Shown: piece after piece, positions 48,338-48,515 of the stretch | Layout: each line of letters begins with the position of its first letter | How positions within the stretch are numbered: the stretch's first letter is position 1 | Source: Rhizobium sp. NRK18 | Lineage (GTDB): Bacteria > Pseudomonadota > Alphaproteobacteria > Rhizobiales > Rhizobiaceae | Length of the DNA: 64,000 bases | Direction: 5' to 3' | Assembly (NCBI RefSeq): GCF_024385575.1 | Contig: NZ_JANFMV010000001.1 | Coordinates: forward strand, 248,001-312,000 | Notes under the pieces: model-generated | The model's database searches: none | Told to the model about the DNA's origin: nothing | The model's input: only the letters and a program-made list of their open reading frames with translations | Program-made: the position numbers and the translations under genes

Positions 48338-48395
48338 TTTTTTTGAATTTTTTCTGACGAGTTGTGTTGACTTGATTTGGGTGGTGGGCTTATAA
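48338..48395 (+). promoter_or_regulatory. Very strong rRNA-type promoter with UP-like tract
   Basis: TTGACT (48367-48372), exactly 17 bases, TTATAA (48390-48395). A T/A-rich tract at 48338-48353 occupies the position of an UP element, and the discriminator is G/C-rich (GCTGCG). This is the strongest visible promoter in the window and is of stable-RNA type, but only a truncated tRNA lies downstream. Confidence 0.75.
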
Positions 48396-48405
48396 GCTGC
48401 GTCAC

Positions 48406-48471
48406 GCAGCCCGGTAGCTCGTCAGGCTCATAACCTGAAGGCCGCAGGTTCAAATCCTGCCCCCGCAACCA
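48406..48471 (+). pseudogene. 5'-truncated initiator tRNA-Met (anticodon CAT)
   Basis: Sixty-six bases match tRNA-fMet from its D arm to the CCA end: GCAGCCCGGTAGCTCG, the anticodon arm TCAGG-CTCATAA-CCTGA (CAT at 48429-48431), the T arm GCAGG-TTCAAAT-CCTGC, then CCCCGCAACCA. The first 11 positions, including the whole 5' acceptor strand, are absent; the bases in their place (GCTGCGTCAC) cannot pair with the 3' acceptor. It cannot make a normal tRNA. It is fused to a strong promoter 10 bases upstream and followed by a terminator. In rhizobia tRNA-fMet closes the rRNA operon, so a deleted rrn operon is the simplest origin. Confidence 0.8.
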
Positions 48472-48488
48472 ATCCAGCACAAATACAT

Positions 48489-48515
48489 AACCGCTCCTCG
48501 CTAGGGGCGGTTTTT
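48489..48515 (+). terminator. Rho-independent terminator after the truncated tRNA
   Basis: AACCGCTCC (48489-48497) pairs with GGGGCGGTT (48504-48512), one T-G wobble, and five T residues follow. The predicted transcript from the promoter would be about 113 bases. Confidence 0.85.

Follow-up and report, generated by a model that had tools for sequence, protein, structure and literature searches.

The window analysed here, a stretch of 64,000 nucleotides from Rhizobium sp. NRK18, contains at positions 48339 to 48515 a sequence in which the promoter of a ribosomal RNA (rrn) operon is followed directly by a tRNA-fMet that lacks its 5' end. The features are listed below; C1 is a contig of the same assembly.

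47162..48145, minus strand: peptidase family S58 gene (Pfam PF03576), adjoining the rrn promoter on its left, as in Martelella-like genomes.
48339..48405, plus strand: 67-base stub of the 5' edge of an rrn operon (UP-like T-rich tract, -35, -10 and first leader bases), from 67/67 identity with C1:956209-956275 and alignment with the rrn promoters of Martelella-like relatives.
48405..48406, no strand: almost certainly an artificial assembly join at which the rrn operon body is absent, from the 67 shared bases on each side, the stubs at the C1 ends and in a tandem copy, and a toy de Bruijn control.
48406..48472, plus strand: 67-base stub of the 3' edge of an rrn operon, that is, tRNA-fMet positions 12-77 (48406-48471) and one A, from 67/67 identity with three other places.
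48473..48515, plus strand: rrn 3' flank with an intrinsic terminator (stem at about 48490-48511, T-run up to 48515), from reading of the sequence and likeness to flanks elsewhere.

Reading of the sequence placed a T-rich tract at 48339-48353, the motif TTGACT at 48367-48372 and, after a 17-base spacer, TTATAA at 48390-48395. The tRNA-fMet remnant begins 10 bases after TTATAA and comprises the last 66 of the 77 bases (48406-48471), CCA included; the first 11 are missing. It is followed by a GC-rich hairpin and T-run at approximately 48490-48515, which were read by eye and left unscored. The remnant was recognised as a tRNA in Rfam (37.4 bits against a cut-off of 29). ARAGORN called no tRNA in the whole window and, with 11 5' bases gone, the remnant does not have the complete acceptor and D arms of a functional tRNA-fMet. 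The GCTGCG/CGCAGC hairpin described in the original prediction is also present, as a 6-bp inverted repeat (GCTGCG-TCA-CGCAGC) at 48396-48410 that spans the junction. The predicted order of promoter, truncated tRNA-fMet and terminator was therefore confirmed by reading of the sequence, and the 67/67 genome matches reported below put it far beyond chance.

Both halves of the fused sequence were compared with the whole assembly of the same genome (4,545,028 bases in 5 contigs), which is rated 100% complete. Positions 48339-48405 were identical over 67/67 bases to C1:956209-956275, a promoter with an rrn leader immediately after it, in agreement with the earlier identification of an rrn promoter. 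Positions 48406-48472 were identical over 67/67 bases to C1:963244-963310 (within an intact tRNA-fMet), to C1:963311-963377 and to the last 67 bases of C1. The 5' end was intact in one of the four own-genome tRNA-fMet copies that matched over 66 or 67 bases at 100%. The rrn region at 956-963 kb of C1 contains a full-length 23S match, a 5S and the intact tRNA-fMet; no 16S was seen in this region, which is partly masked, and the same masking makes the absence of any match to the 16S model in the own genome uninformative. The view that the remnant is the tRNA-fMet of an rrn operon terminus, with the rrn body absent between it and the promoter, was thus borne out.

Ten hand-picked promoters were aligned, and all of them have TTGACT, a similar -10 region and the trinucleotide CAC. 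After CAC, the sequence continues as CGACGG in the own genome's nearest copy and in seven relatives and as TGACGA in the third own promoter; the window sequence is cut directly after CAC. The original prediction had been made to depend on similarity between 48338-48395 and other rrn promoters of this genome. This expectation held for one promoter, which is identical, and failed for the third, near the C1 start, which differs. Downstream, sequence nearly identical to the flank at 48473-48515 was found after the tRNA stub at the C1 end and also after a tRNA-fMet 3' piece at C1:986889. A tandem-repeat search of the window revealed no other duplication of about 67 bases.

The length of 67 bases recurred at the other edges of the rrn repeat. 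On the minus strand, the C1 end is the same tRNA 67-mer, cut at the same tRNA position 12 as the window junction, and the C1 start is a third 67-base stub, derived from the rrn leader and common to C1:956407-956473. At C1:963311 the tRNA 67-mer stands directly after the intact tRNA-fMet and one A, head to tail, as if overlapping contigs had been concatenated with the overlap retained. The stub lengths of promoter, tRNA and leader are three separate measurements, each of 67; the occurrences of the tRNA stub count only once, since they have a common boundary. No microhomology exists at the join: the other promoter copy goes on with C instead of the window's G, and the intact tRNA carries A instead of the window's C. 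Consistent with an assembly junction, a single fixed repeat overlap was found on both sides of the join (67 + 67 bases), and the same overlap was found at other repeat edges (C1 start, 67; C1 end, 67; tandem copy, 67), true contig ends included. A breakpoint independent of contig edges, as expected of a deletion scar, was not observed; the junction matches the C1 end and the tandem copy at C1:963311 to the base.

In all, three promoter-side and three tRNA-side edges were seen, which points to at least three rrn operons. The two ends of C1 may together represent a further rrn operon without its body, provided that C1 is circular, as is inferred here. The only rrn operon that was placed in the assembly is itself scrambled, with the leader stub running straight into a 23S-like piece. 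This piece (L015:6475-7081, equivalent to G000:C1:956474-957080, G000 being the own genome) is 81% identical to the genome's own 23S and is probably a mis-join or foreign sequence.

Copy number was compared with that of five relatives, hand-picked for few contigs (2-6). One 5S gene was found in the own assembly (150/238 candidates scored), compared to three each in G340, G092 and G366, four in G390 and five in G227. The tRNA-fMet counts of these relatives equalled their 5S counts (3, 3, 3, 4 and 5), and their 18 fully identical tRNA-fMet matches over 66 or 67 bases had an intact 5' end in 16/16 fetched loci. The number of repeat copies in the record is therefore lower than expected.

The neighbourhood of the S58 peptidase gene (PF03576) was used to locate the equivalent place in relatives. 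Of four named Martelella loci, three have an rrn promoter and leader ahead of this gene, followed by the end of the contig; the contig of the fourth (M. limonii) stops at the peptidase gene. These four were among the best 80 of at least 583 peptidase loci in the named collection. Within genus g105 the peptidase was present in six genomes, with the promoter just upstream in 5/5 fetched; the two sets overlap, as G184 is probably the same as M. alba L100. In G245 the sequence upstream of the peptidase runs 74 bases into 16S, and the promoter of G340 precedes a masked stretch at the expected 16S place and then 23S, 5S and tRNA-fMet in the expected direction. The gene convergent to the peptidase in G340 encodes an outer-membrane efflux protein (PF02321); in the window these two genes are separated by a SulP transporter gene. 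A sul1 RNA was detected (RF03058, 73 bits; window 45535-45590) at the 5' end of a SulP-family transporter gene with a STAS domain; if translation of this gene begins near 45656, the RNA lies ahead of the start codon.

Outside g105, no rRNA was found in the 12-13 kb upstream of the peptidase in any of the three genomes fetched (G092, G390 and G366). BLAST of the rrn parts against the 80 peptidase loci gave a single match, in L100, and none in the 76 non-Martelella loci, but it is too insensitive to prove the absence of rrn, since it missed two of the three Martelella promoters; those in L087 and L091 were recognised when the ends of the contigs were inspected by eye. In 22 of the 80 loci, ARAGORN called no tRNA. 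From the sequences compared, an rrn operon beside the peptidase appears to be a trait of Martelella-like genomes and not of the family as a whole. A genus search returned the own genome only, and in a family DNA search (151 genomes) no relative among the matches listed spanned both the peptidase and the ABC transporter gene to the right of the junction.

The behaviour of such a repeat during assembly was modelled in a toy genome with three rrn copies drawn from the sequences above, in a graph whose nodes were K-mers. A 23S-5S-tRNA stand-in body was used because the operon is partly masked. At K = 67 there were four branch nodes. Three coincided exactly with the 67-mers of promoter, leader and tRNA, and the remaining one lay where two 3' flanks first diverge. 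At K = 55 and 77 the same repeat boundaries were obtained, with stubs that by construction were as long as K (55 and 77). All that the toy graph shows is that stubs of fixed length, equal to the node size, form at repeat boundaries; it is no proof of any particular program. Descriptions of de Bruijn graph assembly state that neighbouring pieces of the graph overlap by a fixed length close to k (PMC2821320; PMC9215042).

Taken together, the promoter-tRNA fusion is almost certainly an artefact of assembly, in which a repeated rrn operon was dropped and its edges were glued together. This reading rests on the 67 bases on both sides of the join, the 67-base stubs at both C1 ends and the tandem duplication at the placed operon. 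The chromosome would carry at least three rrn operons with long identical stretches in common. An assembler, probably of the de Bruijn type with nodes of 67 bases, would have extended the unique contigs exactly 67 bases into the repeat at its promoter edge and, at its tRNA-fMet edge, begun them exactly 67 bases before the end of the repeat. A later joining step would then have attached a promoter-side contig directly to a tRNA-side contig without inserting gap letters, and the operon body would thereby have been lost from the record. In vivo, a normal 16S-23S-5S-tRNA-fMet operon is most likely transcribed from the promoter at 48339-48405. An intact rrn operon, absent from the record, is very probably present in the cell at 48405/48406, so that neither a scar nor a tRNA-like RNA is needed. 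The inverted repeat across the join might be seen as a mark left by a genuine event and is taken here as a coincidence. Because the join is artificial on this reading, the right flank (the MalK-type ABC transporter gene and the genes that follow) may belong behind a different rrn operon from the left flank, and the pairing of the flanks on either side of 48405 is not secure.

The original prediction had proposed that a real chromosomal deletion removed 16S, 23S and 5S as well as bases 1-11 of tRNA-fMet and left a scar in which promoter and tRNA are joined. Such an event would account for the junction as recorded, it identifies the rrn promoter and tRNA edges correctly, and an rrn operon does occur at this place in Martelella-like relatives. 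It is nevertheless very unlikely and was rejected: there is no reason for a biological breakpoint to have exactly 67 shared bases on both sides, nor for it to fall at precisely the base where C1 ends and where the tandem tRNA copy at C1:963311 starts, and the stub at the C1 start and the scrambled placed operon are left unexplained. It is less likely still that the fusion is real, with the operon deleted down to the promoter, and that the tRNA-fMet fragment is highly transcribed as a regulatory or decoy RNA.

A remnant of site-specific integration or excision at tRNA-fMet was also considered, since an arrangement of the integrase type exists elsewhere in this genome, where the tRNA-fMet 3' piece at C1:986889 lies beside a tyrosine integrase gene. 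Relative to the window junction, that piece begins 21 bases deeper in the tRNA, no integrase was apparent around the junction when the open reading frame list was inspected by eye, and the left half of the fusion is an rrn promoter and not the end of an element. An integration scar was rejected, given the different start within the tRNA, and we consider it extremely improbable.

The C1:986889 piece itself comprises 46 bases (45 bases of the tRNA 3' end and one A), is followed by the usual rrn 3' flank and adjoins the integrase gene (PF00589, PF13356). The approximately 23.5 kb beside the placed rrn operon (G000:C1:963378-986939; L194, L195) looks like an island integrated in tRNA-fMet. It encodes a HamB-type helicase (PADLOC, 1659 bits), a protein that matches IetA more weakly (67 bits) and a 1461-aa protein for which PADLOC gave no match. 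The placement of the island is not secure because its left border is itself at an assembly join.

Conservation of the fusion was assessed by searching 61 genomes (the own genome and 60 relatives) with positions 48339-48530 at E <= 0.001; the -35 element corresponds to query bases 29-34. Matches were obtained in 54 of the 61 genomes, but in the 60 relatives none began before query base 49, and hence no relative match includes the -35 element. Five rows cross the join position (starting at query bases 49-67, with 74-85% identity); the only one of the five that was read, from G040, is an intact tRNA-fMet beside what by eye appears to be the end of a 5S. Conservation of the same truncated tRNA and promoter in relatives, which the original prediction had named as evidence against itself, was thus not seen in these 60 genomes at this threshold. 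A functional tRNA-like small RNA of about 110 bases, made at a high level from the rrn promoter and ending at the 48490-48515 terminator, is of negligible probability: promoter, remnant and terminator are in order, the remnant scores as a tRNA in Rfam and the hairpin pairs with the old D arm, yet this RNA would require a real fusion, against which all of the evidence for an assembly join applies, and a conserved small RNA was rejected because no match in the 60 relatives (E <= 0.001) extends from the tRNA part back to -35.

Neither the scar of a deleted chromosomal operon nor the source of a tRNA-like RNA was therefore supported; the 67-base stubs at the join, the C1 ends and the tandem duplication favour loss during assembly. 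The locus illustrates cleanly how an rrn repeat left unresolved can create a false gene fusion, free of gap letters, within an assembly whose rated completeness is 100%. Records of this kind would give wrong counts of rrn operons, tRNA-fMet genes or tRNA-derived RNAs. The fingerprint, repeat stubs of equal length at a join with matching contig ends elsewhere, could be searched for automatically.

The window's promoter, leader start and tRNA-fMet 3' part are those of the rhizobial rrn operon, 16S-23S-5S-tRNA-fMet, and the 23S-5S-tRNA-fMet order is present at the equivalent place in G340; the body of the operon is absent from this record. In the riboSeed paper, de novo short-read assembly is reported to collapse near-identical rrn operons that have distinct flanks, and its authors suspect collapsed rDNA repeats in several reference genomes (PMC6009695). 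The present case resembles those cases, as described there, in that near-identical rrn operons with distinct flanks appear to have been collapsed by assembly. It differs from them in that two unique flanks also appear to have been glued together without gap letters, giving a false promoter-tRNA fusion that is biological in look.
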